Assembly: GCF_005862305.2 (NCBI RefSeq)
Contig: NZ_CP054026.1
Coordinates: 62,001-126,000, forward strand
Direction of reading: 5' to 3'
From: Rhizobium indicum
GTDB lineage: Bacteria > Pseudomonadota > Alphaproteobacteria > Rhizobiales > Rhizobiaceae
Length of the DNA stretch: 64,000 bases
The notes beneath the pieces were generated by a model. It was not told where the DNA came from. It worked only from the letters and a program-made list of their open reading frames with translations, and did no database searches. Numbering within the stretch: the first letter of the stretch is position 1; every line of letters begins with the position of its first letter. Shown here piece by piece: positions 40,386 through 55,398 of the stretch. Both the position numbers and the translations under genes were made by a program.

Positions 40386-41723
40386 TTAATCCTGAATGCC
40401 GGAGGTGCTCCCCGCCTTGAGCTTAACTTCGATGACCGGGACGACGATCTGAGGTCGGCGCACCGGCAGGACGAATGTCATTTGATCATCACCGACGGGG
40501 AACTGGGTGTTCGCCCACAAGGTATTGGCGGACGGGCGCAGCCAGGTGACCTCGCTGCCATCATGCAGGAATTGCGCATATTCGACTTTCCCCGCCAGCG
40601 CATCGAAATGCAGATGGCGATAGGGCCAGTTGAAGAGGTGGATATAGAGACGATCGCCATTCTGGGTCAGGCGGCAGTCGGCCGGAGCGGTGAAGTCGGA
40701 CTGGGTGCAGCCGACGATGCTGCGCTCGTGCAGTGCCATCCACTCCTCATAAGCGGCAAGGGCTGCAATCGCGCGGTGGTCGAGTGTGCCGCGCGCCGTC
40801 GGCCCGACATTCATCAGCAGATTACCACCCATGGCAACGGTGCCGACAAGCATCTGGACCAGTTGTTCTGTGCTTTTCCAGGTGTCCTCGTCGCGGTGAT
40901 AGCCCCAGGAACCGCTGAGCGTGTGGCACGCTTCCCAGACGACGCGCCTGCCATCGCGGAGTGGCCGGGCGCGCGGCATATATTGCTCCGGCGTGACGAT
41001 ATCGGGCTGCAAGCCGGCGAGATCGAGCCGGTTGTTGATGATGATGTCGGGGGCGAGTTCGCGCACCAGGCGCACGAGTTTCTCGCTTTCCCAATCCTGA
41101 TGGCCCTTTCCGACCAGTTCTCCGAGCTTCCATTGCGGATAGCTGAAGTCGAACCACATGATGTCGATCTGGCCGAAGTCCGTCAGCAGTTCGCGGACCT
41201 GCTCGCGCATGAAGGCGGCATAGCGCTGCACGTCCCGGCCTTCATTGATTTTCAGCGCATCTGGATGATTGCGCTGCGGATGGCGTGGATCGACCGTGAA
41301 GTCCGGATGATGCCAGTCGATCAGCGAATAGTAGAACCCGATCCTCAGGCCCTCCGCACGGAAGGCGTCGACGAATGGACCCACCAGATCCCGCCCATAA
41401 GGCGTGTTGGTCACCTTGAAGTCGGTCGCCTTGGTATCCCAGAGGCAGAAGCCTTCATGGTGCTTGGTCGTCAGCACGACATATTTCATGCCCGCAGCTT
41501 TCGCGCGTCTGGCCCATTCTCGCGGGTCGTAGAGATCGGGATCGAAATGATCGAAATATTTCTGGTAGTCGGCGTCGTTCAGCTCTTCGCGACTCTTGAC
41601 CCATTCATGGCGTGCCGGCAGCGCATAAAGCCCCCAGTGCACGAACATGCCGAACCGGTCGTGAACGAACCAGGCCTTCTTCTCCTCAGGCAGGGCCAGC
41701 GACTGCAGATTGTTGATATCCAT
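40386..41723 (-). CDS. Alpha-L-fucosidase, GH29
   Basis: The protein has 445 residues from the ATG at 41723, which has AGGAGG about eight bases upstream. GH29 landmarks are FGMFVHWGLYALPARHEW (25-42), TTKHHEGFCLWDT (85-97) and the nucleophile aspartate D192 in DIMWFDFSYP. A C-terminal beta domain follows. No signal peptide is present, so it cleaves imported fucosides. It is encoded downstream of a LacI regulator and a palindromic repeat. Divergent from them lies a Dpp-type importer operon for a uronic-acid glycoside. Fucose caps from xyloglucan or pectic side chains are possible targets. Confidence 0.93.
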   Translation of the reverse strand: MDINNLQSLALPEEKKAWFVHDRFGMFVHWGLYALPARHEWVKSREELNDADYQKYFDHFDPDLYDPREWARRAKAAGMKYVVLTTKHHEGFCLWDTKATDFKVTNTPYGRDLVGPFVDAFRAEGLRIGFYYSLIDWHHPDFTVDPRHPQRNHPDALKINEGRDVQRYAAFMREQVRELLTDFGQIDIMWFDFSYPQWKLGELVGKGHQDWESEKLVRLVRELAPDIIINNRLDLAGLQPDIVTPEQYMPRARPLRDGRRVVWEACHTLSGSWGYHRDEDTWKSTEQLVQMLVGTVAMGGNLLMNVGPTARGTLDHRAIAALAAYEEWMALHERSIVGCTQSDFTAPADCRLTQNGDRLYIHLFNWPYRHLHFDALAGKVEYAQFLHDGSEVTWLRPSANTLWANTQFPVGDDQMTFVLPVRRPQIVVPVIEVKLKAGSTSGIQD

Positions 41724-41756
41724 CGGATATTCCTCCTGTTCCAAACTTTAAGAGTT

Positions 41757-41806
41757 GGAGCATGATGTCGTCCGAAAACCGCTCACACTTTTCGGCATCA
41801 TGCTCC
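41757..41806. repeat. Rhizobial-type palindromic intergenic repeat
   Basis: GGAGCATGATG (41757-41767) is mirrored exactly by CATCATGCTCC (41796-41806), and inside it CCGAAAA is mirrored by TTTTCGG. The 50-base unit would fold into one long hairpin. Sequences with this GAGCATGATG...CCGAAAACCGC pattern are common between genes in Rhizobium. It lies between the LacI stop and the fucosidase start and may lower read-through or protect mRNA ends. Confidence 0.8.
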
Positions 41807-41813
41807 GGGGCGT

Positions 41814-42821
41814 TCAGGTCGTTTCGCGGATGATGAGCTCCGGCACGATGACGATGCCGTGCTGGCGGTTTCTGGTGGCGATGCGGCTGAGCAGCAGGCG
41901 CACGGCTTCCTCCCCCATTTCGCGTTTTTGCACCCGCAGGGTGGTGAGCGCCGGGGACAGCAGTTCGGCAGTCGGAATATCGTCGAAACCGATCAAGGCG
42001 ATTTGCCCGGGGATAGAAATGCCGGCGGCCCTGCAGGCCTTCATGGCGCCGATCGCATTGAGATCGTTGTAGCAGACAAGGGCATCGATGCCGGGCGTCT
42101 CCGCCAGCAATTGCGCGGCCGCTGTTTGCCCGCCTGCCGCGGTCGGATCGCAATAAACGATGCCTTGCGCTTTGAGCCCGTGGGCGGCCAGCGTCTTGCG
42201 AAAGCCGACAAGACGGCTCTTGCCGCCAAACGAACTGCGCGGCCCGGCGATGATCGCTATCTTGCGGCGCCCGCGCTCGACCAGATGGTCGATGGCACGC
42301 GACGCGCCCGTCTCGTAGTCGGTGACGATCGTCCCCGCGACCTCGTTGGGCGCCTCGCGGTTGATGAGCACCACGGCACGGTGTGGCGCAAGCGCCTTGT
42401 GAAGCGCAGCGTCGGGCAGTCGCGGGCTGCAGACGATGATCCCGTCGACCCGATGCCGCAGCAGCGTTTCGATGAGTTCTTCCTCCCGCTTGCTGTTCTC
42501 GACGACATTGGACAGAAGCAGGTTGTAGCCGGCAGCGCTCGCGGCATCCTCGGCTCCCCTGATGACTTCTGGAAAGAACGGATTGGTGATGTCGGGAACG
42601 AGAAGGCCGATGGCCTTCGATCGATCGGACCGCAATCCGCGCGCAAAGGGATTGGGCCGGTAGTTGAGTTCGCTCGCCGCTAAGATAATCCGCTGACTGG
42701 TCTCCGCACTGGCTCCGCCCCGATCATTGAGCACGCGCGATACCGTCATCGGCGACACCCCTGCGGCGCGGGCGACATCGGCGATGGTTATTTTGGATTC
42801 TGGCTCTTTGGAGCGGCTCAA
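41814..42821 (-). CDS. LacI-family transcriptional regulator
   Basis: The protein has 335 residues from a TTG at 42821; no better start is in frame, and GAGACG lies upstream. The helix-turn-helix (TIADVARAAGVSPMTVSRVLND) is near 12-33 and the hinge (YRPNPFARGLRSDRS) near 55-69. The sensor domain continues to the end with LIGFDDIPTAELLSPALTTL. It is divergent from the Dpp-type importer operon and upstream of the fucosidase gene. AACGATAAC repeats in the gap between it and the importer are its likely sites. Confidence 0.92.
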   Translation of the reverse strand: MSRSKEPESKITIADVARAAGVSPMTVSRVLNDRGGASAETSQRIILAASELNYRPNPFARGLRSDRSKAIGLLVPDITNPFFPEVIRGAEDAASAAGYNLLLSNVVENSKREEELIETLLRHRVDGIIVCSPRLPDAALHKALAPHRAVVLINREAPNEVAGTIVTDYETGASRAIDHLVERGRRKIAIIAGPRSSFGGKSRLVGFRKTLAAHGLKAQGIVYCDPTAAGGQTAAAQLLAETPGIDALVCYNDLNAIGAMKACRAAGISIPGQIALIGFDDIPTAELLSPALTTLRVQKREMGEEAVRLLLSRIATRNRQHGIVIVPELIIRETT

Positions 42822-42850
42822 TTGGATCGTCTCATTAAAATTTGCGGGAA

Positions 42851-42989
42851 TTTACGATAACGATAACTAACACAATTTCCGGGGAAGCCAAGGCTGCTAT
42901 GGGTAAAGATGAGGCGCCAAGAATCTTTTTGACAAGATTGAACGGTAACGATAACGTTCACAAAAGAGGAGAATACGTTAACGATAACC
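42851..42989. promoter_or_regulatory. Three clusters of ACGATAAC operator-like repeats
   Basis: Copies lie at about 42853-42867 (two overlapping), 42944-42959 (GGTAACGATAACGTTC) and 42975-42989 (with the palindrome CGTTAACG at 42976-42983). Their arrangement in the 193-base gap between the divergent LacI and binding-protein genes is typical of a LacI operator array with looping. The last copy ends 25 bases before the binding-protein start. Confidence 0.62.
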
Positions 42990-43014
42990 TAGAGCGGAAC
43001 ATTGGGAGGAAAGA

Positions 43015-44940
43015 ATGCAACACGTCAGAATCTTAAGACGGCAGGTTGTCTCGACCGTTGCCGCGGCGATCCTCATGGGTGCCGGCTGGGCCGGTGCCGC
43101 ATTCGGCTTTGAGGAGTCGCCGGAACTGAAGGCGCTGGTCGATGCCGGCAAGCTGCCGCCGGTCGAAAAGCGGCTGCCCAAGGAGCCGCTGGTACTCACG
43201 CCGCTTGAATCGGTTGGTACCTATGGCGGCACCTGGCGCACGGCCACCTTTGGCGGTGGCGACAGCGAGATCGAACGTTCAATCGGCTATACGAGACTGG
43301 TCCGCTGGAATCCGGAATGGACCGAAGTGATCCCCGATCTCGCCAAGAGCGTCGAGGTCAATGCCAATGCCACCGAATATACCTTCACCTTGCGTGAAGG
43401 CACACGCTGGTCGGACGGCGAGCCCTTTACCGCGGACGATCTGGTGTGGTGGAACGAGAACGTGCTGCGCAACACCAAGATCACGCCTGCAGCACCCGAC
43501 TGGCTGACCGCAGGCGGAGAGACCGTCAAGGTCGAAAAGCTCGCCGCCGACAAGGTCGTCTTCAAATTTGCCGCGCCGAACGGCCTGTTCCTGATGAATA
43601 TGGCGACCGTTCGCGGCTCCGATATTCTGGCAGCCGCACCGGCCCATTACCTCAAGCAATTCCACAAGGATTTCAATCCCGACGGCGTCGATGCCCTGGT
43701 GAAGGCAGCCGGTGCAACCGACTGGGTCCAGCTCTTCAACAACAAGATCGGGTTTCCCGGCCGCTGGCGCGATCTCGGCCGTCCAACGCTCGATGCCTGG
43801 GTGTTGACCGCGCCCTATAACGGCACCACCCAGGTCGTTGGAGAACGCAATCCATACTATGCCAAGGTGGATACCGCAGGAAACCAGCTGCCTTACTTCG
43901 ATCGGATCACCATCGATGTGATGCAGGATACGCAGGCCATCATCCTGAAGGCGATCAGCGGCGAAATCGACATGCAGAACCGCTTCATCGAGACGACGGA
44001 CGCCCGTACGGTGATCGTGCAGAACCAGGAGAAAGGAGGCTACGGCCTGTTCATTGCCCGGCCGGCGTGGTCGAACGCCCTGCTGATCACCCTCAATCAG
44101 ACCCACAAGAATCCGGCCTTGCGTGCTGTCTTTTCCAACAAGGATTTCCGCATCGGCCTCAGCTACGCCATCAACCGCGAAGAGCTCAACCAGCTGATCT
44201 ATGCCGGACAGGCCAAGCCTTATCAGGCGGCACCGCGTGAAGGCACCGCGCTCTATGACGAGAAGATGGCGACGCAGTATCTGGAATATAATGTCGATCT
44301 CGCCAATCAGTATCTCGACAAGGCCGGCCTTACCAAACATGACGCCGAAGGCTATCGCCTCGGTCAGGACGGCAAGCGGATCACCTTCGCGATCGACGCC
44401 TTGACCGGAAGCCCGATCCAGGTGGATGCCCTCGAGATGATCCAGCGCTACTGGCGGGCTGTCGGCATCGACATGCAGCCCCGCCCGGCCGAACGTTCGC
44501 TGATCTTCTCCCGCCTGCAGAACAACGAGAATGACGGCCTTGGATGGGTCGGCGGCGGTGGCTACGACTTCCTCGGCCTGCTGGATCCCAAATGGTATTT
44601 CCCGCACGAATACGAGTCGAGCTTCGCGACGGCCTGGGGCCTCTATTACCAGAACCCCAAGGATCCGAACGCGCAAGAACCGAGCCCCGCTGCCAAGAAG
44701 CAGATGGATCTCTACCGGCAGGTGCAGGAAGCGCCGACGCTCGAAAAGCAGTTGGCCGAGATGAAGGAACTGCTGGCGATCACCCGTGACGAATTCTACG
44801 TCATCGGCACCAACCTGGAGCCGGATCGCGTCGGCATCGTCAAGACCAATATGCGCAATGTCCCGAAGGTCATTCCCAGCACATCGTTCTACATGACGCC
44901 GGGACCGGCAAAGCCCGAGACCTTCTACTACCAGCAATAA
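43015..44940 (+). CDS. ABC transporter substrate-binding protein, family 5 (Dpp/Opp type)
   Basis: The protein has 641 residues with GGGAGG before the ATG. A signal peptide ends near residue 32 (AAFG). The mature protein shows family-5 features: GTYGGTWRT near 65, then YTFTLREGTRWSDGEPFTADD, and a long C-terminal lobe. In rhizobia this family often binds oligosaccharides such as alpha-galactosides rather than peptides. It heads an operon of sugar-acid enzymes, so an oligosaccharide with uronic acid is a fair guess. A hairpin follows the gene and may keep expression of the binding protein above that of the membrane parts. Confidence 0.93.
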   Translation: MQHVRILRRQVVSTVAAAILMGAGWAGAAFGFEESPELKALVDAGKLPPVEKRLPKEPLVLTPLESVGTYGGTWRTATFGGGDSEIERSIGYTRLVRWNPEWTEVIPDLAKSVEVNANATEYTFTLREGTRWSDGEPFTADDLVWWNENVLRNTKITPAAPDWLTAGGETVKVEKLAADKVVFKFAAPNGLFLMNMATVRGSDILAAAPAHYLKQFHKDFNPDGVDALVKAAGATDWVQLFNNKIGFPGRWRDLGRPTLDAWVLTAPYNGTTQVVGERNPYYAKVDTAGNQLPYFDRITIDVMQDTQAIILKAISGEIDMQNRFIETTDARTVIVQNQEKGGYGLFIARPAWSNALLITLNQTHKNPALRAVFSNKDFRIGLSYAINREELNQLIYAGQAKPYQAAPREGTALYDEKMATQYLEYNVDLANQYLDKAGLTKHDAEGYRLGQDGKRITFAIDALTGSPIQVDALEMIQRYWRAVGIDMQPRPAERSLIFSRLQNNENDGLGWVGGGGYDFLGLLDPKWYFPHEYESSFATAWGLYYQNPKDPNAQEPSPAAKKQMDLYRQVQEAPTLEKQLAEMKELLAITRDEFYVIGTNLEPDRVGIVKTNMRNVPKVIPSTSFYMTPGPAKPETFYYQQ

Positions 44941-44956
44941 CGGAACGCGACCTACA

Positions 44957-44996
44957 GGGCTGGCGTCTACGGGCGCCACCCCATCAACACCAGCCC
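44957..44996 (+). other. Intra-operon hairpin after the binding-protein gene
   Basis: GGGCTGG (44957-44963) pairs with CCAGCCC (44990-44996), enclosing a smaller GGGCGCC element. No T run follows. Such hairpins often protect the upstream mRNA or reduce read-through into permease genes. Confidence 0.45.
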
Positions 44997-45042
44997 AGTC
45001 CCAATCATCCGATCGGCGATCGCCGATTGAAGGAGCTTGACC

Positions 45043-46029
45043 ATGGCCGGCTTCATCATCAGACGTCTGCTTTACATGATCCCGATGATGTTCGCGATAT
45101 CAGTCGTGACCTTCATCATCATCCAGCTGCCGCCCGGCGACTTCCTGACCGCGATGACGGCGCGTCTGGCCTCCCAGAACGAAACGATCGATCCCGGCGT
45201 CATCGCCGGCCTGCGTGAACGTTACGGCCTCGATCAGCCCTGGGCGGTCCAATACTGGAAATGGATCAGCGGCATCCTGCTGCGCGGCGATTTCGGCCAG
45301 TCCCTCGATTGGAACAAGCCGGTCAGCGAGCTGATCTGGGGCCGCATGGGCCTGACGATGGTGGTCTCGGTCACCACACTGTTCTTCGTCTGGGCGGTGG
45401 CCTTTCCGATCGGCATCTATTCGGCCGTGCGGCAATATTCGGTGGGAGATTACGTCGCCACCTTCTTCGGCTTCCTCGGCCTTGCCATCCCGAACTTCCT
45501 GCTGGCGCTGGTGCTGATGTATGTTTCGGCTCAATATTTCGGCCAAAGTACCGGCGGGCTGTTTTCGCCCGCCTATATAAATGCGGTCTGGAGCTGGGCC
45601 AAGCTCGGCGATCTCATGTCGCATATGTGGATCCCGGTCGTCGTTCTCGGCACCGGCGCGACGGCAGCGCTGATCCGTATCATGCGCGCCAACCTGCTCG
45701 ACGAGCTCAACAAGCCCTATGTCGACATGGCCCGCGCCCGGGGCTTGAGTGAAATCCGGCTGCTGTTGAAATATCCGGTGCGGGTGGCGCTCAACCCCTT
45801 TGTCTCGACCGTCGGCTGGGTGCTGCCGCACCTCGTCTCCGGCTCGGTGGTGGTCTCCATCGTTCTCAGCCTGCCGATCACCGGGCCACTGCTGCTCAAC
45901 GCCCTCTTTGCCCAGGACATGTATCTGGCCGGCACGTTCATCCTGCTGATGAGCATGCTGACGCTGATCGGCACACTGATTTCGGACCTGCTGCTCGCCT
46001 GGCTCGATCCACGCATTCGCAACGGCTGA
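45043..46029 (+). CDS. ABC transporter permease, DppB/OppB type
   Basis: The protein has 328 residues from the ATG at 45043, with AAGGAG seven bases upstream. Six helices are present; the family motif is near 225-260 (DMARARGLSEIRLLLKYPVRVALNPFVS). An N-terminal FIIRRLLYMIPMMFAISVVTF helix is typical of DppB. It is followed 12 bases later by its partner permease. It forms the inner-membrane channel for the family-5 importer. Confidence 0.94.
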   Translation: MAGFIIRRLLYMIPMMFAISVVTFIIIQLPPGDFLTAMTARLASQNETIDPGVIAGLRERYGLDQPWAVQYWKWISGILLRGDFGQSLDWNKPVSELIWGRMGLTMVVSVTTLFFVWAVAFPIGIYSAVRQYSVGDYVATFFGFLGLAIPNFLLALVLMYVSAQYFGQSTGGLFSPAYINAVWSWAKLGDLMSHMWIPVVVLGTGATAALIRIMRANLLDELNKPYVDMARARGLSEIRLLLKYPVRVALNPFVSTVGWVLPHLVSGSVVVSIVLSLPITGPLLLNALFAQDMYLAGTFILLMSMLTLIGTLISDLLLAWLDPRIRNG

Positions 46030-46041
46030 AGGACGAGACCA

Positions 46042-47175
46042 ATGACCGATCAAGCCATCGCGCTATCACCCGAACGGATCCAGAATTCCGACGCGGTCGC
46101 CGGGCAGTGGAAGCTCATCTGGCGGCGCTTCCGTCGCCATCGCCTGGCGCTGGCGGCCGGCGTCGTCATCTTTTTGATCTACCTGGTCGCCCTGTTTGCC
46201 GAGGTTCTCGCCCCGGTTTCGTCGCAGACCTACGATTCCCGCTACACCTATGCGCCGCCGCAGCAGATCAGGTTCGCCGGCTACGACGCGGCCGGGCAGT
46301 TTCATCCGCTCTACGTCAACGGTTATTCGATGAAGGTTGACCCGATCGCGCTCAGCCGCAATTACGTGCCCGATCCGGCCGTCGTCATCCCCCTCGGCTT
46401 CTTCGTCAAGGGCGAACCCTACCGGCTCTGGGGGCTGTTTAATTTCGACCGGCACCTGATCGGCCCGATCGAGATGGGCAAACCATTCTACCTGTTCGGC
46501 GCCGACCGGCTGGGTCGCGACGTCTTCAGCCGGACGGTCCACGGCACCCGCGTTTCTATGTCCGTCGGACTGATCGGGGTGGCAATCAGCCTCATCCTCG
46601 GCATCATCCTGGGCGGCATCTCGGGGCTCTACGGCGGCTGGGTGGACGATGTCATCCAGCGCTCCATCGAACTCATCAACTCTATCCCGACCATCCCGTT
46701 GTGGATGGGCCTTGCGGCTGCCGTTCCGATCAGCGCCGATCCGCTCCTGGTCTATCTCTGGATCACGATCATCCTGTCGCTGATCGGCTGGACCGACCTG
46801 GCACGGGTGGTGCGCGGGCGCTTCCTGTCGCTCAAGACGGAAGACTTCGTCATAGCCGCCCGTCTCGACGGCTGCTCGCAGATGCGCATCATCTGGCGGC
46901 ACATGGTGCCGTCCTTCATGAGCCACATCATCGCCTCGGTGACGCTTGCCATTCCGACGATGATCCTCGCAGAAACCGCGCTCTCCTTCCTCGGCATCGG
47001 CCTGCGCCCGCCGGTGGTGAGCTGGGGCGTGCTGCTTCAGGAGGCACAGAACATTCTTGCCGTCTCGAGCGCACCCTGGCTGTTTCTTCCCGGTCTCGCG
47101 GTGATCGTCACCGTGCTCGCCCTCAATTTCCTCGGTGATGGATTACGCGATGCTGCAGATCCCTATGAATACTGA
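46042..47175 (+). CDS. ABC transporter permease, DppC/OppC type, with enlarged periplasmic loop
   Basis: The protein has 377 residues, about 80 more than a standard DppC. The extra length lies between helix 1 (near 37-57) and helix 2 (near 170), a periplasmic insertion (SRYTYAPPQQIRFAGYDAAG onward). The EAA loop is near 265-290 (AARLDGCSQMRIIWRHMVPSF), and GADRLGRDVFSRTVHGTRVS marks the family. The end overlaps the next ATPase gene. It completes the importer channel. Confidence 0.93.
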   Translation: MTDQAIALSPERIQNSDAVAGQWKLIWRRFRRHRLALAAGVVIFLIYLVALFAEVLAPVSSQTYDSRYTYAPPQQIRFAGYDAAGQFHPLYVNGYSMKVDPIALSRNYVPDPAVVIPLGFFVKGEPYRLWGLFNFDRHLIGPIEMGKPFYLFGADRLGRDVFSRTVHGTRVSMSVGLIGVAISLILGIILGGISGLYGGWVDDVIQRSIELINSIPTIPLWMGLAAAVPISADPLLVYLWITIILSLIGWTDLARVVRGRFLSLKTEDFVIAARLDGCSQMRIIWRHMVPSFMSHIIASVTLAIPTMILAETALSFLGIGLRPPVVSWGVLLQEAQNILAVSSAPWLFLPGLAVIVTVLALNFLGDGLRDAADPYEY

Positions 47176-48214
47176 TCCCAATTTTGCCGCAGCCGGCGGC
47201 CGGCACAGGGATCGCGACCCGCTGATCGAGGTCGATGATCTCAGGACCCATTTCTTCGGGGTTGCGGGCACCATCAAGGCGGTCGACGGCGTCTCCTTTT
47301 CCATCCCGCGCGGCAAGACGGTCTGTGTCGTCGGCGAATCCGGTTCGGGCAAGAGCATCACCGGCCGCTCGATCCTCAATCAGGTTCCCAGGGGAGGGCG
47401 GATCGTCTCGGGGGCAATCCGCTACCGGCCGGATCCGGCAGCACCCTCCGTCGACCTGGCGGCGCTCGATCCGCGCGGCCACGACATGCGGGCGATCCGC
47501 GGTGCCCAGATCGGCCTGATCAGCCAGGAGCCGATGGCCGCACTTTCCCCCGTTCATACGATCGGCAACCAGATGGTGGAAGTGATCCGCCTGCATCTGA
47601 AGATGGGAAAGAAGGAGGCGCGCGAACATGCCATCGAGACATTGGCTCTGGTCGGCATTCCGCGGCCGGCCGAGCGTATGGAAAACTATGCCTTCCAGTT
47701 TTCCGGTGGCATGCGCCAGCGCGTCTGTATCGCCTTGGCGCTCGCCTGCCGCCCCAAGCTGCTGATCGCCGACGAACCGACCACGGCGCTCGATGTGACC
47801 ACCCAGGCCAATATCCTCGATCTGCTGGCCTCGCTGCAGGCCGAATTCGGGCTCTCGGTGCTGTTCGTGACCCATGATCTCGGTGTGGTGGCCGAAATCG
47901 CCGACGAAGTCGTCGTCATGTATGTCGGCCGGGTCGTGGAGGCAGGCGATGTCGACACGATCTTCCACGCGCCTGTTCATCCCTACACCAAGGCGCTGCT
48001 GCAATCGGTGCCGCGCATGCACGGGCAACCCACCGAACGGCTTGCGATCATCGATGGCATGGTGCCCTCGCGTTTCAACCGGCCCCAGGGCTGCAGCTTT
48101 CATCCCCGATGCAAAGAGGCGAGGGCCGGCCTGTGCGACCAAAAGGATCCGCAGCCCGTTACGATCGGCGACGGGCATGTCGCCAGCTGTCTGCTTTACG
48201 AAGGAAGACAATGA
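47165..48214 (+). CDS. ABC transporter ATP-binding protein, DppD/OppD type
   Basis: The protein has 349 residues from the ATG at 47165, which lies 11 bases inside the permease gene. A GTG/ATG pair at 47135-47140 is an alternative with a longer overlap. Walker A GESGSGKS is near 56-63, signature FSGGMRQR near 178 and Walker B with DEPTTALD near 200. A C-terminal oligopeptide-type iron-sulfur-like cysteine stretch ([16 protein letters not shown]) is present near 310-325. It supplies one of two ATPases to the importer. Confidence 0.92.
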
Positions 48215-49272
48215 TGGCTGATCCCATAACCCAACCAAGCCCGCTGCTCGAGCTGACCGATCTCAGGATGCATTTCCCCATTCGCAAGGGCGCATTCCGG
48301 CGTGTGGTCGGACACGTCAAGGCGGTCGATGGTGTCTCGCTTCGTGTCGAGGATGGCGAAACACTCGGCATTGTCGGGGAATCGGGCTGCGGCAAGTCCA
48401 CGCTTGCCCGCACGGTGCTGCGCATCTATCAGCCGACGAGCGGTGAAATCCGCTATCGCAACCGCAGCGGCGGCACGGTCGATCTCGCGGCCTTGTCGGG
48501 GTCTGCCCTCGACGAAATCCATCGCGACCTGCGCATCGTGTTTCAGGATCCGCAATCCTCACTCAATCCGCGCCTTCCCGTCATCGACATCATCGGCGAG
48601 GTGCTTGGTGTCAACGGCATCGCCAAGGGCCGGGAACTCGAGCACCGGGTCGCCGACCTCATGCAGAGCGTCGGCCTGCGGCCCGAATACATGCACCGCT
48701 ATCCGCATGCGTTTTCCGGCGGCGAGCGGCAGCGCATCGGCATCGCCCGGGCGCTGGCCTCCAATCCGCGGCTGGTGATCGCCGATGAGGCCGTTTCGGC
48801 GCTCGATGTCAGCGTGCAGGCACAAACCATCAACTTGCTGCAGGACCTGCAGGAACAGTTCGGTCTGACCTATCTCTTCGTCGCCCACGACCTCTCGGTT
48901 GTCCGGCATATCTCGGACAATATCGCCGTCATGTATGTCGGTCGGGTCGTCGAAAAGGCGCCGACGGAGCAGATCTTTTCGCGCCCGCTCCATCCCTACA
49001 CCGAAGCGCTGCTCTCGGCGGTGCCGATTGCCGATCCGAGGATGCGCCGCCACGGCCAGCGCATCCGGCTGGCGGGCGAGGTTGCCGATCCCGCCCACCC
49101 GCCGCCCGGCTGCGCATTTCATCCGCGCTGCCGCTACGCCACCGAGCTGTGTAGGCAGGAGGTGCCGGGCTTGCGCACCGTCACGGCCGATGGGCACGCA
49201 GTGGCCTGCCATCATGCCGAATCCTTGTCGCTTAATCCCTTCGCCGACCGTACCGTTCCGGAGTTCAATTGA
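48211..49272 (+). CDS. ABC transporter ATP-binding protein, DppF/OppF type
   Basis: The protein has 353 residues from the first of two adjacent ATG codons at 48211, overlapping the upstream stop as ATGA and preceded by AAGGAAG. Walker [10 protein letters not shown] is near 52-60, signature [13 protein letters not shown] near 168-180, and Walker B follows. The cysteine-containing C-terminus [15 protein letters not shown] is near 305-320. It pairs with the DppD-type subunit. The stop overlaps the IolB-like gene by one base, which shows that catabolic and transport genes form one transcript. Confidence 0.93.
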
Positions 49273-50105
49273 TGCCCGAATTCATTCCACGCTCCGAGCA
49301 GCGTCCCATTGTGGATACCTCCTCCACGACGCTCGATCTCATCTACTTCGATCTCGTCACGCTCGCCTCCAACGAGCAGGACATCCGGCTGCTGCCCGCG
49401 CACGAAAGCCTCTACGTCGTGCTGTCGGGTCAGGTGGATATCGAGGTGGATGGCATCATGTTCGAAGCGGTGGGCCGGCGAGCCGATATCTGGGGAGGCG
49501 ATGCGGACTCGGTTTACGCGCCCGTCGGCGCCAATGTCCGGATATCGGCTCGTGGCGCGGCAGCGGAAGTGGCCATCGCGGGCGGCCTCTGCGACACGCA
49601 CTACGCCCCGTTTCGCATCACGCCGGATGAGGTCGACGCGGTCAATGTCGGCTCGTCGGACACGCATAGCCAGCGGCGGATCGTCCATCTGCTCGGCCAA
49701 CGGCAGAACGGGCGCTGCGGTAACCTGCTGGTGAGCGAACTCTATGCCGGCGAGGGATGCTGGTCCGGCTATCCCCCTCACAAACACGATACCGAAGACG
49801 GTGATGTCGAGACCCGGCACGAAGAACTGTATCACTACCGCTTCCAGCCCGAGACCGGTTTCGGCAGCCAGATCACCTATGACGAAGACGGTCCGGTCAA
49901 GATCCTCATGACCCGCAACGGCGACACTGTCCTGGTCGACCGGGGTTACCACCCGACAGTCACCTCGCCGGGGCACCGGGGCTATATCTTCACCATTCTC
50001 GTCGGCAAGCATCGTCGGGGGCTGATCCAGCGCTTCGATCCCGCCCATCAGCATCTGACCAAAACCATCCCCGGCATCGATGCGATGCGCGACAAGTTCA
50101 AATAA
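49272..50105 (+). CDS. IolB-like 5-deoxyglucuronate isomerase family protein (double cupin)
   Basis: The protein has 277 residues and starts on an ATG that overlaps the ATPase stop. The C-terminal cupin carries the metal motif PPHKHDT with H170 and H172, then E184/E185 in RHEELYHYRF and GFGSQITYD, as in IolB and KduI enzymes. IolB isomerises 5-deoxy-glucuronate in inositol breakdown. No other iol gene is present, so here it may isomerise a free uronate, for example glucuronate or iduronate to a keto-uronate. It lies immediately upstream of the iduronidase-like gene. Confidence 0.85.
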   Translation: MPEFIPRSEQRPIVDTSSTTLDLIYFDLVTLASNEQDIRLLPAHESLYVVLSGQVDIEVDGIMFEAVGRRADIWGGDADSVYAPVGANVRISARGAAAEVAIAGGLCDTHYAPFRITPDEVDAVNVGSSDTHSQRRIVHLLGQRQNGRCGNLLVSELYAGEGCWSGYPPHKHDTEDGDVETRHEELYHYRFQPETGFGSQITYDEDGPVKILMTRNGDTVLVDRGYHPTVTSPGHRGYIFTILVGKHRRGLIQRFDPAHQHLTKTIPGIDAMRDKFK

Positions 50106-50174
50106 TCCGGCTCCTGGCCTCGTGCGCCGGCATTGCGGCGCACTGCCAAACGTCCGCCCAAGGAGAGACGACCC

Positions 50175-52040
50175 ATGCGTGAACGTACGCGAATAAACGT
50201 TGATGCCAGTGAAGCGGTGCGCCCGTTCAACCGCTTCTGGCGGGGCACCGGCTTTTCACCCGCCGAGCTTCTGCTCGAGCCCGAGATGCGCCAGATGCTT
50301 GCCTATATTGGCGGCCTGCCGAATGAAGGCATCCGGTTCCTGCGCGTGCATTATCTCTACAACCTGCTGAGCGCGAAGGGCGAGGCCGGCTACGACTGGT
50401 CGCTGCTCGACCGCGCGCTCGACGTGATGATCGAACACCGGCTGAAGCCGTTCTTCGAGCTGATGGGCAACCCGTCGGGCCTGTTCACCGATTATGAGGA
50501 CATGGATCAGGTCAAGCGCTGGCGGGATCTCGTGACGGCAACAGTCGACCGTTATGGCGCGCGTTACGGCATGGACGAGTTGCGGACATGGTATTTCGAA
50601 ACGACGAATGAGGCCGACTCCGGCTGGTGGACCTACGGGATCAAGGGTTACACCAACTACTACGACGCCTGCGTCGCCGGGCTCGATGCCATCGATCCCA
50701 GCCTGCCGATGGGCGGGCCTGGCACCGCCCGCACGCTCTCGCCGATCTTTCGCGCCCTCATGGCCCATTGCGACAGCGGCACGAGCTGCCTCAGCGGTGA
50801 CGGCCCGCCGCGCATCGATTACATCTCGATCCATGAAAAGGGCGTCAACGGCAGCAAGGAAGACCTGACTCCGAAAACCAACGCCATCGTCGACCGCACG
50901 TTGCTCGTCGTCGACTATCTCAAGGAGCATCACCCGCGCCTGGCGGGCCTGCCCATCATCAACGATGAATGCGATCCGCAGCTCGGCTGGAGCGATCATC
51001 ATAGCTGGCACGGCAAAGCCTATTATGCCGGCATCATCGCCCGCATCATCGAACAGCACGACCGGCGCATCATCGCCCCGAAAGCGGCGAATTTCACCTT
51101 TCTCAGCAATGACCACGCCTTTATCGGCGGCTGGAGCCAGCGCACGATCTTTGCCTATTTCGGTTCGCGCAATTTCACCAAGGCGCAGTGGGAGCACAAG
51201 ACCAATCTGGATATGCTGGTCACGGATGTCGACAGCGCGCCGCCCTTCGACATCATCAAGAAGCCCGGCCTCACATCGATGGAACTGCTGGCAACGCTTG
51301 GCGATACCGTTTGCAAGGTGACGGCCGAACCGCCGCTTGCGCCCGACCAGGATGGCCTGGCGATCCTGCCGACACGGCTGCCGGGCGGCGGTGTCTCCAT
51401 CAGCCTTATCCACAGCGTCGATGCCATCAACCGCTCGGGCCGGACCGCCGTTCGTCTCGAGGTGAGCGGTTTGGTTCCCGGCCGCCACGCGCTTTGCCTG
51501 CTACGCATCGACGAGGAATTCACCAATCCGATGGAGGTCTGGGAAGCCCAGCGCGACGAAAGCAACCCGCGCGGCCCCTTCGAGCCGGTCGGCGCACCGC
51601 CCGCACCTGATGAAGCGCAGTTCGCCGAAATGCGCCGCGCGCAGGAGCCCGCCCTGCTGCATCCGATCAGCGTCGTCGACTGCGACGAAGGCCGGATCAG
51701 TATCGATCTCGATGTGCCATTGCCGTCGCTGACGCAGGTGCTTGTCGTTCCCGATATTGGCGCGCTCCCGGCGGCGCCGACCGGTCTTGTCGTCGAACGC
51801 TACCTTGGTCTTGGCGGTCGCGAAGAGCGCATGCTCTTCTGGGCTGCCGGCGATATCAGCCCGGCCATCTTCTACGATGTCCTGGTCAGCACCGATGGCG
51901 GGACTTTCGAAAAGGTCAGTTCCGCCCCGCTGATCTCGACGGCATTTCTGCACATGTCGCCGCCGGAGGGCGTGCGTTATGCGGTGTGCGCCCGCGATGC
52001 ATTCGGCCGCCGCAGCGAGCTTTGTGTCTCCGGCTCATGA
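50175..52040 (+). CDS. GH39 glycosidase closely resembling alpha-L-iduronidase
   Basis: The protein has 621 residues from the ATG at 50175, with AAGGAGAG upstream, and no signal peptide. From memory of human IDUA (653 residues), similarity runs end to end. FELMGNPSGLFTDYED (95-110) matches FELMGSASGHFTDFED. The acid/base E146 in FETTNEAD matches FETWNEPD (human E182). NYYDACVAGL matches NYYDACSEGL. The nucleophile E265 in IINDECDPQLGW matches IYNDEADPLVGW (human E299). AQFAEMRRAQEP near the C-terminus matches AQFRRMRAAEDP. Ordinary bacterial GH39 xylosidases are shorter and lack this C-terminal part. It probably removes alpha-L-iduronate or a similar uronate from imported oligosaccharides. 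The NEP proline is replaced by Ala. Confidence 0.88.
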   Translation: MRERTRINVDASEAVRPFNRFWRGTGFSPAELLLEPEMRQMLAYIGGLPNEGIRFLRVHYLYNLLSAKGEAGYDWSLLDRALDVMIEHRLKPFFELMGNPSGLFTDYEDMDQVKRWRDLVTATVDRYGARYGMDELRTWYFETTNEADSGWWTYGIKGYTNYYDACVAGLDAIDPSLPMGGPGTARTLSPIFRALMAHCDSGTSCLSGDGPPRIDYISIHEKGVNGSKEDLTPKTNAIVDRTLLVVDYLKEHHPRLAGLPIINDECDPQLGWSDHHSWHGKAYYAGIIARIIEQHDRRIIAPKAANFTFLSNDHAFIGGWSQRTIFAYFGSRNFTKAQWEHKTNLDMLVTDVDSAPPFDIIKKPGLTSMELLATLGDTVCKVTAEPPLAPDQDGLAILPTRLPGGGVSISLIHSVDAINRSGRTAVRLEVSGLVPGRHALCLLRIDEEFTNPMEVWEAQRDESNPRGPFEPVGAPPAPDEAQFAEMRRAQEPALLHPISVVDCDEGRISIDLDVPLPSLTQVLVVPDIGALPAAPTGLVVERYLGLGGREERMLFWAAGDISPAIFYDVLVSTDGGTFEKVSSAPLISTAFLHMSPPEGVRYAVCARDAFGRRSELCVSGS

Positions 52041-52069
52041 ACAATGCCTTTCTGCCTGGGATCTGATCG

Positions 52070-52888
52070 ATGGATATCGCCTATTTCACCAAGACCCTGG
52101 AGGGCCTGTCGCTCGAGAAGGCGGCCGGGATCACTGCCGGTTTGGGATTCGACTGCGCTGATCTTCTCATTCGCGATGGTCACGCCGTTTCCCCTGACAG
52201 TCCGGAGGAAATCATCAATGCGGTAAAGCTCTTTGCCGCGGCCGGTCTGCGCACCCCGATGGCGACCATCGATTCCACCCGGCCCGACGATGCCACATCC
52301 CGGCTTCTCGGTTGTTGCGGCGAGGCTGGCATCGGGCAGGTCCGGCTGGGCTTCTGGCGCTATGACTCGTCGCGGCGCTGGCAGGCCCAGCTTGATGAGG
52401 CGCGGCGCGATCTCGACGGCTTCGAGCGCCTGGCTGAACGCTTCGGCATCAAGCTCACCATCCAGCTTCACGGCGGGACCCTGCACAGCTCGGGCGCGCT
52501 GGCGGTGCGATTGCTGGCCGGGCGCGATCCGGTCAGGATTGGCGCTTATCCCGATCCGGCCAATCAGATCATTCGCGAGGGGAGCGAGGACTGGCGTTTG
52601 ACCCTCGATATTCTCGAACCGTGGTTCTGCTGCATTGGCGTCAAGAACAGTGGTTGGTTCCCCGGCGCTTACGGAGCTCATGGCCAGCGTACATGGCATT
52701 CGGACTGGTACGGGCTCGATGAAGGCATGGTGCCCTGGAACGAAATAGTCCCGCATCTGGTGGCCACTGGATTTGCCGGCGTGCTCTCGATGCAATCCCA
52801 ATACCGCGTCTCTCGAGAGCGGGCGCTCGACAAGGTCCGCGCCGATCTTGCCCATCTCAGGCGCCTGGTCGCCGTAGCGAAAGAGTAG
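52070..52888 (+). CDS. Xylose-isomerase-like TIM-barrel protein (AP_endonuc_2 family)
   Basis: The protein has 272 residues. The fold shows as alternating strands and helices with metal-site residues in typical places: IQLHGGTLH near 145, IGAYPDPAN near 163 and CCIGVKNSG near 190, then a late VLSMQSQY. Family members isomerise or epimerise sugars and inositols (IolE, IolI, hydroxypyruvate isomerase, ketose 3-epimerases). The usual EP.N motif is altered, so catalytic type is unclear. It follows the iduronidase-like gene by 29 bases and probably handles the released uronate or its keto form. Confidence 0.8.
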   Translation: MDIAYFTKTLEGLSLEKAAGITAGLGFDCADLLIRDGHAVSPDSPEEIINAVKLFAAAGLRTPMATIDSTRPDDATSRLLGCCGEAGIGQVRLGFWRYDSSRRWQAQLDEARRDLDGFERLAERFGIKLTIQLHGGTLHSSGALAVRLLAGRDPVRIGAYPDPANQIIREGSEDWRLTLDILEPWFCCIGVKNSGWFPGAYGAHGQRTWHSDWYGLDEGMVPWNEIVPHLVATGFAGVLSMQSQYRVSRERALDKVRADLAHLRRLVAVAKE

Positions 52889-52892
52889 AACC

Positions 52893-53909
52893 ATGATCGA
52901 ACAGGCTCCCGTTATCGCCGTATTGCTGACCGAAAAAACCCGCCGGATGATGCTGGACGACGCGGCGATTGCCCAGTTGAACGCTCTTGGCGAGGTGCGT
53001 TGGCCGACCGGCGCCACAATCGACGCCACCGATGTCGACCACCTGCTGCAAGACGCCACGGCATGTCTCACCGGATGGGGCACGCCGCCCTTCGATCCCG
53101 CCGCGCGCCAGCGCCATCCGCAACTCGCCCTTGTCGCTCATTCAGCAGGCAGCGTCCGCACACTCGTTCCCGCGCGTCTGTTCGACGATGGCATTCGCGT
53201 CACCCATGCCGCCTCGAAAATTGCCGCCTCGGTTGCGGAGTTCGTGGTCGCCGAAGCGCTTTTGGCGATGCGCGGCATTCATCGGCTGCATCATCAATTG
53301 CGCAACGGCGGCGAATGGCTCGAGGTCCGCGCAGCCGTGCCGCAAAAATTGCTGGGCGCCAGAACGGTCGGCATCGTCGGCGCCGGATATGTCGGGCGGG
53401 CGGTCATGCGCCTGCTCGTTCCATTCGGCTGCCGCGTGCTGGTCGTCGATCCCTTTCTCCACGATAGCGAGGCCGCTGCGCTCGGCGTTTTCAATGCCGG
53501 GTTGAACGATATGCTGGCTCAGAGCGACGTGATCTCGCTGCATGCGCCTGTCCTGCCCGAAACGCGCCGCATGATCGGCGCCTCCGAACTGGCGCTGCTG
53601 CGCCCCGGTGCGCTGTTCATCAATACGGCGCGCTCGCAGCTGGTCGACGAGGCAGCGCTGCTCGCCGAGATCCGCTCCGGCCGCATCGAGGCGGCTCTGG
53701 ACGTCTTTGACGACGAGCCGCTGCCTGCAGATAGTCCGTTCCGCGATCCCGCACTGGCCAATGTCACCATTTCGCCGCACGCTGCCGGTCACACCGAAGA
53801 GGCGCATCTCGCCCAAGGACAGGCCATGGTGGATGAGATCGGCCGGCTGCTTCGCCGGGAACCTCTCCATCATGAAGTGTCCCGTGCCATGCTCGACCGC
53901 ATGGCATGA
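52893..53909 (+). CDS. D-isomer-specific 2-hydroxyacid dehydrogenase family protein
   Basis: The protein has 338 residues. The NAD-binding motif GIVGAGYVG is at 160-168, with an Asp at the end of the next strand (VVDPF). The catalytic arginine lies in FINTARSQLVDEAAL, the Glu in FDDEPLPADS and the His in ISPHAAGHTEEA. Such enzymes reduce or oxidise 2-keto/2-hydroxy acids such as glyoxylate, hydroxypyruvate or keto-uronates. The gene begins four bases after the TIM-barrel stop and overlaps the enolase-superfamily gene by four bases. In this operon, reduction of a keto-uronate to an aldonate is plausible. Confidence 0.9.
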   Translation: MIEQAPVIAVLLTEKTRRMMLDDAAIAQLNALGEVRWPTGATIDATDVDHLLQDATACLTGWGTPPFDPAARQRHPQLALVAHSAGSVRTLVPARLFDDGIRVTHAASKIAASVAEFVVAEALLAMRGIHRLHHQLRNGGEWLEVRAAVPQKLLGARTVGIVGAGYVGRAVMRLLVPFGCRVLVVDPFLHDSEAAALGVFNAGLNDMLAQSDVISLHAPVLPETRRMIGASELALLRPGALFINTARSQLVDEAALLAEIRSGRIEAALDVFDDEPLPADSPFRDPALANVTISPHAAGHTEEAHLAQGQAMVDEIGRLLRREPLHHEVSRAMLDRMA

Positions 53910-55327
53910 CCATGGACAGAAGCATTGGAGGTTCCGTGACGGCGCCGCGCATCAGAATCATCGAGATCGACGCTTTCGAGCGCGACATCAGGCTGCGCCT
54001 GCCGTTCCGTTTTGGCGCGGCAACTCTCGAAAAGGCGCCGCAAGCCTTTCTCAGGGTCCGCGTCGAGGATGGAGAGGGGCGAACCGCCCTTGGCGCCGCC
54101 GCCGAGATGATGGTGCCGAAATGGTTCGACAAGAACCCGGCGCTGACGCCGGCGCAAAATGTCGATCAGTTGCGCACCTCGATCCGCACTGCTGCGGCCG
54201 CTTCGCTCGAGCCGTCGGCGCCGACGACATTGTTTGGCGCCGCCCGCCTGAACGAGATGGAAACCGTGCGGCGTTTGCCTGGAAATCCGTTGGCCGCCGG
54301 TTTCGGTCCGTCGCTCATCGCCCGCGCCGCGCTCGATGCCTATTGCCGCCTTTCGGGCATTTCCTTCTTCGAGGCGGTGCGCCGAAATCTCGTCGGCATT
54401 GGTGGCCCCATGCTGCCCGGCGATATCGACGCGGACGCCGCCTCAGCGATGCTCGCCAGCCTTCGCCCTGCGGGCGCGATCTCGGCCCGGCATACGATCG
54501 GGCTTGTCGATCCGATCAGCGAGGGCGATATCGTCCATCCCGTCGGTGACGGCCTGCCGGAAAGCCTCGAGGCGGTGATAACACGCTATGGCAACCGCTG
54601 GTTCAAGATCAAGCTGTCAGGCGCGATTGATGCCGATGTCGACCGCCTGACCAGGATCGCCGCCGTGCTGGACCGCCTGCCCGACTATCGGGTGACGGTC
54701 GACGGCAACGAACAGTTTGGCGCCGCCGAACAGCTTGCCGCTTTGCTGGCGGAAATCGAGGCGACGCCTCGGCTGGCGAGGTTGCGTGCGGCCATTGCCT
54801 TTGTCGAACAGCCGTTCTCGCGCGCGATCACCATGGAAACGCCGCTGGGGGACCTGGCGGCGCAATTGCCCTTCCTGATCGATGAGAGCGACGACGGCGA
54901 CGGCGTCTTCGCCGGCGCCAGGCGGCTGGGATATACCGGCGTCTCCTCGAAAACCTGCAAGGGCATCTACCGTTCGCTCATGAAGGCGATCCGCATCAGA
55001 ACCGCAACGGTGCCGGGACTGTTCCTCTCGGGCGAGGATCTGACCTGCCAGGCGGGACTTGCCGTGCAGCAGGATCTGGCGCTGGTCTCGCTGCTCGGTC
55101 TCTCCCATGTCGAGCGCAACGGTCATCACTATGTGGCCGGCATGCAGGGTGCGCCGCAGGCGGAGAAGGCGCGCTTTGCCGCGGCCCATCCCGATCTCTA
55201 CGAGCAGGGTGCTGAGGGACCGTTGCTGTCGATCCGCGACGGCCGGATCGCCATCGGTTCGCTCGGGGCGGTCGGCTACGCGAGCGGCGCCTTGCCCGTT
55301 TTCGAAGCCATGACGCTATTGTCATGA
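53906..55327 (+). CDS. Enolase-superfamily enzyme, muconate-lactonizing (MLE)-like subgroup
   Basis: The protein has 473 residues, about 100 more than usual. The extra length is mostly in the N-terminal half. The barrel shows K234 and K236 (WFKIKLSG, the K-x-K of the MLE subgroup), D266 in VDGNEQ, E301 in VEQPF, D326/E327 in LIDESDD and K349 in VSSKTCKG, so metal ligands and both acid/base lysines are present. Superfamily members dehydrate sugar acids or epimerise acids. With the dehydrogenase upstream, dehydration of an aldonate to a 2-keto-3-deoxy acid fits. The ATG overlaps the previous stop as ATGA. It is the last intact gene of the operon. Confidence 0.83.
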   Translation: MTMDRSIGGSVTAPRIRIIEIDAFERDIRLRLPFRFGAATLEKAPQAFLRVRVEDGEGRTALGAAAEMMVPKWFDKNPALTPAQNVDQLRTSIRTAAAASLEPSAPTTLFGAARLNEMETVRRLPGNPLAAGFGPSLIARAALDAYCRLSGISFFEAVRRNLVGIGGPMLPGDIDADAASAMLASLRPAGAISARHTIGLVDPISEGDIVHPVGDGLPESLEAVITRYGNRWFKIKLSGAIDADVDRLTRIAAVLDRLPDYRVTVDGNEQFGAAEQLAALLAEIEATPRLARLRAAIAFVEQPFSRAITMETPLGDLAAQLPFLIDESDDGDGVFAGARRLGYTGVSSKTCKGIYRSLMKAIRIRTATVPGLFLSGEDLTCQAGLAVQQDLALVSLLGLSHVERNGHHYVAGMQGAPQAEKARFAAAHPDLYEQGAEGPLLSIRDGRIAIGSLGAVGYASGALPVFEAMTLLS

Positions 55328-55356
55328 CGCCAGCATGAGATAGGGCCTGCTGCCCT

Positions 55357-55398
55357 GTTGAACTGTTCGATCTGTCCGGCAAACGCGCCCTGATCACC
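55357..55398 (+). pseudogene. N-terminal remnant of an SDR dehydrogenase
   Basis: Fourteen codons read VELFDLSGKRALIT, the standard first strand of a short-chain dehydrogenase just before its TGxxxGIG motif. The reading then changes to unrelated sequence at about 55399, and no start codon survives. It begins 29 bases after the enolase-superfamily stop, where the next operon gene would be. From 55400 to 55632 I see no gene. Confidence 0.6.

Follow-up and report, generated by a model that had tools for sequence, protein, structure and literature searches.

A LacI-linked operon of Rhizobium indicum with an alpha-L-iduronidase-type enzyme and a proposed route from L-iduronate to gluconate

Which compound is taken up and degraded by an operon that places an alpha-L-iduronidase-type enzyme behind an ABC importer in a rhizobium? 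The operon comprises ten same-strand open reading frames (ORFs) at 43015-55327 (+) of a 64,000-nucleotide stretch of Rhizobium indicum DNA (contig NZ_CP054026.1, positions 62,001 to 126,000; "the window"). The original prediction was a uronate-glycoside operon in which an iduronidase-like hydrolase of glycoside hydrolase family 39 (GH39) releases a uronate that is then isomerised, reduced and dehydrated. We consider the chances a little better than even that, as the sequences suggest, it forms a LacI-controlled unit for the uptake of an L-iduronate-bearing oligosaccharide and the conversion of L-iduronate to gluconate.

The ORFs encode, in order, a solute-binding protein (SBP), permeases B and C, ATPases 1 and 2, an IolB-like protein, the GH39 enzyme, a TIM barrel, a D-2-hydroxyacid dehydrogenase (2-HADH) and an enolase-like protein. 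A Pfam/NCBIfam scan of the operon proteins other than the two ATPases matched SBP_bac_5, two Opp-type permeases, KduI/IolB, GH39, an AP_endonuc_2 TIM barrel and 2-Hacid_dh_C, in agreement with the predicted content of a family-5 importer, an IolB/KduI-like protein, GH39, a TIM barrel and a 2-HADH. Four of the nine junctions overlap (permease C/ATPase 1 by 41 bases; ATPase 1/ATPase 2, ATPase 2/IolB-like and 2-HADH/enolase by 4 bases each), the remaining five being gaps of 96, 12, 69, 29 and 4 bases. Together with the conserved gene order these features uphold a multi-gene operon, and the ten genes are probably carried on one transcript. The stretch 40386-42821 (-), divergent from the importer, carries genes for a GH29 fucosidase-type enzyme and a LacI-family regulator. 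They are part of the same unit, since their arrangement with the importer, IolB-like and GH39 genes is kept in 26 of 27 relatives. The original prediction had overlooked this pair, along with three operators and the stub of a short-chain dehydrogenase/reductase (SDR) gene described below. Its span included the importer-to-enolase genes correctly but ran on to 55398; the last enolase base is 55327, and the final 41 bases are the SDR stub.

The identity of the hydrolase is best approached through its structure relatives. The protein has a GH39 domain (PF01229, 206.9 bits) and is near-identical to PDB entry 5NDX (1419.8 bits) across residues 1-620 of 621. According to a docking paper (PMC10794756), 5NDX is the orthologue of human alpha-L-iduronidase (IDUA) from Rhizobium leguminosarum bv. 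trifolii, complexed with 4-methylumbelliferyl iduronide; the original prediction had missed this solved structure. It differs from the window protein in having Gln where the latter has Glu146, which is consistent with an acid/base mutant. The match to human IDUA amounts to only about 250 bits. The IDUA residues contacting an iduronate mimic are listed in PMC6343074, and the contact table of PMC10794756 supplies His91. Hand mapping on the 5NDX/IDUA alignment pairs IDUA His91, Asn181, Glu182, Lys264 and Glu299 with window His59, Asn145, Glu146, Lys222 and Glu265, and Gly305, Trp306, Asp349 and Arg363 with Gly271, Trp272, Asp313 and Arg332. The catalytic pair and the ligand-binding residues are thus all present, including Glu182, which we take to be the acid/base residue. 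In an alignment of 125 sequences, eight of the nine columns are kept in 124 or 125 and the Arg column in 92; these sequences (the best 120 of 232 database matches plus five operon proteins) are close relatives by selection. Human IDUA is a lysosomal glycosaminoglycan enzyme with no linked catabolic operon.

The genome's second GH39-like protein is 30% identical over the matched part and keeps six of the nine residues, the catalytic glutamates included; Gly-Trp, through whose backbone the carboxylate is bound, is not matched, and the Arg is unaligned. A xylosidase, which would have undone the predicted function, was rejected as unlikely, since xylosidases reach at most 89.4 bits as against about 250 for IDUA, and Gly-Trp is present. 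The original description of the GH39 protein as alpha-L-iduronidase-like therefore holds at the level of sequence: it is an iduronidase-type enzyme for which hydrolysis of alpha-L-iduronides is predicted.

How much of the unit stays with this enzyme was asked of its relatives, of which 27 were taken from a genome-contig collection. GH29, LacI, importer, IolB-like and GH39 genes occur in the same order in 26 of them, the exception (L029) having fragments of the SBP and GH39 genes only. The TIM barrel, 2-HADH and enolase genes are additionally present in 23 of the 27, being absent from L019, L023, L024 and L029; in L014, L027 and L028 some gene matches are split in two pieces. The conserved order that had been anticipated is therefore found, both for the core and, less widely, for the accessory genes. 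At least 80% of the 12.3 kb is present in 80 of 221 matching records of a plasmid collection, and in R. johnstonii 3841 the unit is located on pRL10. Two diverged copies, in another genus of the same family (G233) and in another family (G807), have LacI and a sulfatase on one side and the SBP, two permeases, two ATPases, IolB-like protein, GH39 and then an SDR on the other. The linkage of LacI (51-54% identity to the window), IolB-like protein (55-59%) and GH39 persists although GH39 has fallen to 44% identity. The sulfatase stands beside LacI in place of the rhizobial GH29. For that of G807, residues 3-421 of 451 align in a single stretch with the 2-O glycosaminoglycan sulfatase 5g2t, which ranks third, after an N-acetylglucosamine-6-sulfatase and a choline-sulfatase.

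If GH39 frees L-iduronate, what would the IolB-like protein do with it? The protein gives 234.6 bits with PF04962 and 164.1 bits with the IolB equivalog TIGR04378, under the cut-off of 205; the G807 protein (171.1 bits), the other one compared with this model, is also under it, and the name IolB-like, not IolB, is used for this reason. In a residue alignment that also took in the G233 protein, PPHKHD, Glu and GYHP are kept in six of six IolB-type proteins, the genome's other IolB homologue included. These residues are metal ligands. The IolB-like protein has the fold family and conserved His/Glu residues in common with IolB of myo-inositol catabolism, and an aldose-to-ketose reaction is predicted for it; it differs in being linked to GH39 and not to iol genes. 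Of the positions aligned with the genome's other IolB homologue, 27% are identical (30% in a separate comparison); that homologue directly follows an ORF that is IolE-like by eye. IolB is reported to convert 5-deoxy-glucuronate to 2-deoxy-5-keto-D-gluconate (PMC5349611, PMC3176187). From Fischer projections we derive that 5-deoxy-glucuronate is equally 5-deoxy-L-iduronate, since there is no C5 hydroxyl and no stereocentre there, and that by analogy the same shift would take L-iduronate to 5-keto-D-gluconate (L-sorburonate) and D-glucuronate to 5-keto-D-mannonate, which is D-fructuronate. The genome encodes a separate UxaC, an enzyme that serves the common uronates, and for these the IolB-like enzyme should therefore be dispensable. 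Uronate release followed by isomerisation, as first proposed, is thus compatible with the GH39 and KduI/IolB matches.

The two enzymes could also be read as handling a beta-D-glucuronide, the C5 epimer of an alpha-L-iduronide, with GH39 freeing D-glucuronate and the IolB-like enzyme making D-fructuronate from it. Plants and rhizobial polysaccharides commonly contain glucuronate, and IolB/KduI-type enzymes could take either epimer. We nevertheless consider a glucuronide substrate improbable: the IDUA residues holding the carboxylate and hydroxyls of L-iduronate are conserved, UxaC is already encoded, the SDR linked to the operon is of the gluconate 5-dehydrogenase group, and 5NDX is described as solved with the iduronide (PMC10794756).

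This SDR, which directly follows GH39 in G233 and G807, suggests how the route might be completed. The nearest solved chains to the G807 protein are 5u9p (gluconate 5-dehydrogenase), 4ibo (gluconate dehydrogenase) and 4g81 (putative hexonate dehydrogenase), and three operon SDRs pass the cut-off of the NF005711 subfamily (413) with 424-452 bits, a model that NCBI names only "SDR family oxidoreductase". By these matches the operon SDRs belong to the gluconate 5-dehydrogenase group; an SDR tree had no fully supported branch and was not used as evidence. Gluconate 5-dehydrogenase reduces 5-keto-D-gluconate to D-gluconate. Among the rhizobia, L019 has an intact SDR gene directly after the last 32 residues of an otherwise lost enolase gene, and in L026 the SDR gene directly follows enolase and is broken by a frame change. 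Remnants were sought in the 1.1 kb after enolase in the 23 loci bearing the accessory genes and in the window, and L019 was judged separately; over the 24 loci made up of the 23 and L019 there were one intact gene, one frame-broken gene, eight N-terminal stubs, four C-terminal stubs and ten without trace. The stub in the window is an N-terminal one and ends at 55398, 71 bases past the enolase stop, exactly where the original prediction ended. The rhizobial operon thus probably ended at one time in the SDR gene, which was probably lost more than once, by different deletions.

The window genome has two SDR paralogues, 66-69% identical to the G233 SDR. One is on the same replicon, clustered with gluconolactonase-like (by eye), LacI homologue, L-idonate 5-dehydrogenase-like and 2-HADH genes; it adjoins a gluconokinase gene (above the family cut-off) and is under the same operator type as the unit. 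One of the two could supply the reductase step in this genome.

In the original prediction, reduction and dehydration were assigned to the 2-HADH and the enolase-superfamily enzyme as core steps. The enolase-like protein has no Pfam match and one weak NCBIfam match. Its residues K234, K236, D266, E301, D326 and K349 are invariant in 36 of 36 aligned proteins and lie at or just after strand ends in its model, and they fit the motif of the MLE subgroup, i.e. KxK on strand 2, Asp/Glu/Asp metal ligands and Lys on strand 6. Fold matches to the model are generic only (11-21% identity); several glucarate dehydratases, among the 50 matches listed by Foldseek, are as generic as the rest at 11-14%. Dehydration of L-fuconate or of aldarates has no specific match by sequence or fold to support it. 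The TIM barrel, 2-HADH and enolase genes are absent from G233, G807, L023 and L024, where the IolB-like and GH39 genes persist, and by this comparison they form a dispensable, accessory block. The 2-HADH and enolase reactions were rejected as core steps because these copies lack the block and two of them, G233 and G807, have the SDR directly after GH39; L019, with its enolase remnant of 32 residues, tells the same story.

It might still be that isomerisation, 2-HADH reduction and enolase dehydration have become the main route in R. leguminosarum, having replaced the SDR. The block is found in 23 of 27 loci and an intact SDR is lacking in 23 of 24, so that such a takeover could have happened; relatives of GH39, the TIM barrel and enolase also probably occur together on contigs elsewhere (of 97,552 and 242,452 bases). 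Set against this are the four copies without the block, L019, which dropped it and retained the SDR, and the generic matches of the enolase model, and we hold the replacement to be unlikely.

The enolase-like group itself is very large (7,995 of 8,000 scored candidates match), and a relative occurs in 36 of 297 genomes of a family-level sample. Surroundings were viewed for 18 of the 36 (loci L066-L083): a gene of a Gfo/Idh/MocA cluster is linked in 10 of 18 and one of a DUF993 cluster in 8 of 18, each cluster being named from one member. One public-data record (protein P0093) has an RraA-family (PF03737) stretch after the enolase relative, so that the next gene may differ between lineages. L025 (17355 onward) and G250 (contig 10, 160548) each have a second enolase-like match, a partial one, close to the operon.

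The favoured conversion of L-iduronate to gluconate gains a regulatory link from the region between the LacI and SBP genes, which holds three operator-like sites. With up to one mismatch allowed, four matches lie in the window (one site on both strands) against 0.25 expected from shuffles. A degenerate pattern, built on the sites of the window, G233 and G807, occurs in 26 of the 27 relatives. In control DNA there were four matches in 334,014 bases, three of them in the R. johnstonii copy of the same region; with that copy removed the background is one match per about 308,000 bases. The degenerate pattern also recurs three times in the idonate/gluconate-type cluster on the window's own replicon, namely between the gluconolactonase-like and LacI genes, between the 2-HADH and SDR genes and before an ABC ATPase gene. 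To judge from these sites, a common operator type links the unit to gluconate metabolism, and LacI may control the unit by binding the three proposed operators. A promoter and terminator scan of 42700-43100 found nothing. In the idonate/gluconate-type cluster (L098, G000 replicon C6, 218000-236000) the three sites are perfect or near-perfect palindromes of the type seen in the window.

What the importer carries can be approached through its SBP, whose closest solved relative is SPH1118 of Sphingomonas sp. A1 (411.5 bits, residues 44-640); galactoside- and nickel-type binding proteins are much weaker matches, at 86 and 46 bits. SPH1118 is described as a cluster C pectin-binding protein with unsaturated trigalacturonate as ligand, the contacts including Arg57, Arg438, Arg466, Arg496 and Trp594, of which its authors call Arg57, Arg438 and Trp594 particularly important (PMC9314435). 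Arg57 and Arg466 are kept and Arg496 is replaced by Lys in all five operon SBPs compared; Glu505 is kept in three of five, Asn53 in none, and Arg438 in two (G233 and G807), the three rhizobial proteins having Ser there. In the window SBP, Ser also takes the place of Trp594. By its kinship with SPH1118 the importer would suit an acidic oligosaccharide, in line with the predicted import of a uronate-bearing oligosaccharide; the ligand is likely to be acidic and different from that of SPH1118, since Asn53, Arg438 and Trp594 are not kept.

The kinship with SPH1118, whose ligand is an unsaturated oligogalacturonate (PMC9314435), and the place of KduI and IolB in one Pfam family would also allow the IolB-like enzyme to act as KduI does, its substrate being an unsaturated 4-deoxy uronate derived from pectin or another lyase product. 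This we hold to be very unlikely: no polysaccharide lyase or GH88/GH105-type hydrolase is among the 22 annotated features that surround the R. johnstonii copy, and KduI structures match the IolB-like protein only at E about 0.1. Moreover, GH39 enzymes are hydrolases of saturated residues.

By eye the GH29 and GH39 N-termini bear no obvious signal peptide; the GH29 enzyme is therefore probably cytoplasmic and trimming by both enzymes would take place inside the cell. In R. johnstonii 3841 the unit's GH29 gene (NC_008381.1, 280310-281647) is the sole GH29 match on a contig with coordinates fitting pRL10, and so fits pRL100274. This alpha-L-fucosidase gene is reported from insertion sequencing to be required for pea-root attachment only at pH 6.5 (PMC11406972). 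A cytoplasmic GH29 would argue against direct remodelling of the cell surface by pRL100274, which is the only locus tag of the operon met in the literature searched (most subscription journals lie outside it).

Taken in sequence, the preferred pathway would run as follows. The SPH1118-like SBP and the ABC importer would bring in an acidic oligosaccharide, presumably from a natural glycan carrying alpha-L-iduronate plus, in rhizobia, a fucosyl-type sugar. Cytoplasmic GH29 would remove fucose and GH39 would free L-iduronate, which the IolB-like enzyme would isomerise to 5-keto-D-gluconate by the same chemistry as IolB uses with 5-deoxy-glucuronate. Reduction to D-gluconate would then fall to an SDR of the gluconate 5-dehydrogenase group, in the window genome to one of the two close paralogues, since the operon's own gene is only a stub there, and gluconokinase would pass D-gluconate into central metabolism. 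With iduronidase, IolB-like enzyme and SDR the route to gluconate would be closed and stereochemically exact. The proposal has 5-keto-D-gluconate, SDR, gluconokinase and LacI-family control in common with the E. coli-type L-idonate/5-ketogluconate pathway (IdnD, IdnO and GntK); that pathway is entered from L-idonate via a dehydrogenase, whereas entry here would be from L-iduronate via an isomerase.

Several points weigh against this pathway. The matches to His91, Asn181, Glu182, Lys264, Glu299 and Asp349 recur in the second GH39-like protein, so that only Gly-Trp and the unaligned Arg separate the two. Neither the specificity of IolB proteins nor that of SDRs can be read from sequence; the IolB-like proteins are below the IolB cut-off, and the operon SDRs, with 282-290 bits, do not reach the cut-off of 408 of the gluconate 5-dehydrogenase equivalog NF005983, which the genome's own idn-cluster SDR (351.4 bits) also fails to reach. 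Of the 24 rhizobial loci, 23 have either no SDR gene or a broken one within 1.1 kb after enolase, so the last step must come from elsewhere in those rhizobia, and L023, L024 and L029 have no SDR match in the locus stretch examined. Of the three SPH1118 residues stressed by its authors the window SBP retains Arg57 alone, and 5ipw, labelled putative oligopeptide-binding, is nearly as close to it (373.8 bits). LacI regulators whose recognition helices are alike may have such operators in common for unrelated reasons. Finally, we know of no land plant in which L-iduronate is a sugar constituent, which leaves the natural rhizosphere substrate unexplained.

Table 1. Features of the unit, with positions in the window.
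Feature	Position	Strand	Basis
GH29 alpha-L-fucosidase-type enzyme	40386..41744	-	PF01120 296.7 bits; nearest solved chain 6gn6; adjoins LacI in 26/27 loci
LacI-family regulator	41814..42821	-	PF00356 and Peripla_BP_3; in 26/27 loci; 51-54% identical in G233/G807
Proposed LacI-type operator 1	42856..42867	+	Operator pattern search
Proposed LacI-type operator 2, directly after a TTGACA	42944..42955	+	Operator pattern search
Proposed LacI-type operator 3	42977..42988	.	Operator pattern search
Family-5 solute-binding protein, nearest solved relative SPH1118	43015..44940	+	Pfam, structure-chain search, residue alignment
ABC permease B	45037..46029	+	Pfam, NCBIfam
ABC permease C	46042..47175	+	Pfam, NCBIfam
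ABC ATPase 1	47135..48214	+	ORF, locus comparison; "ABC transporter ATP-binding protein" in R. johnstonii copy
ABC ATPase 2	48211..49272	+	ORF, locus comparison; "oligopeptide/dipeptide ABC transporter ATP-binding protein" in R. johnstonii copy
IolB-like uronate isomerase (proposed L-iduronate to 5-keto-D-gluconate)	49269..50105	+	PF04962, TIGR04378
GH39 alpha-L-iduronidase-type enzyme	50175..52040	+	5NDX 1419.8 bits, IDUA about 250 bits; active-site residues kept
Accessory TIM barrel; fold resembles that of isomerase Art22 and of ketose 3-epimerases	52070..52888	+	PF01261; AlphaFold2 pLDDT 93.8, fold search
Accessory D-2-hydroxyacid dehydrogenase	52893..53909	+	PF02826
Accessory enolase-superfamily enzyme, MLE-subgroup-like residues	53906..55327	+	Residue alignment, model, fold search
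SDR stub, probable first codons of lost gluconate 5-dehydrogenase-group gene	55358..55398	+	41 bases, 95% identical to L019 SDR start

Immediately downstream, at 55872-59021 (-), a gene for an RND efflux transporter (ACR_tran) converges with the operon. A decayed copy of the operon (L064, in G047), with SBP and GH39 fragments only, adjoins a different Opp-type importer; its contig is as long as that of L029.

The unit is uncommon outside the window's rhizobial group. GH39 was found at E <= 1e-40 in five of the 297 genomes of the family-level sample and in one of 385 of a class-level sample, the latter match being the window's own genome; a G233 query at E <= 1e-50 had matches in four of 347 genomes of the order. 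Among five genomes of the G807 family and five of the G233 genus, the only matches were G807 and G233 themselves. The wider clade of GH39 iduronidases includes, among others, members from Inquilinus, Chelatococcus, Bosea and Terrarubrum.

According to a 2019 review (PMC6353982), it is not clear by which reactions microbes break down L-iduronate. The papers listed from the literature searched gave no description of an iduronidase/IolB-like/gluconate pathway and no account of the operon or pathway of 5NDX, and for L-iduronic acid in Rhizobium polysaccharide the papers looked into held only reference-list or abbreviation mentions. Against this background the cluster names candidate enzymes and a proposed, chemically exact route from L-iduronate to a common metabolite. 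We give even odds to the wider view that bacteria have a dedicated pathway for L-iduronate, that a common operator type ties it to the gluconate regulon, and that the IolB family holds an unrecognised L-iduronate isomerase. If true, this would suggest an answer to how microbes use L-iduronate. The unit also brings an iduronidase-type operon to plasmid pRL10 of a legume symbiont, together with a fucosidase that fits pRL100274.

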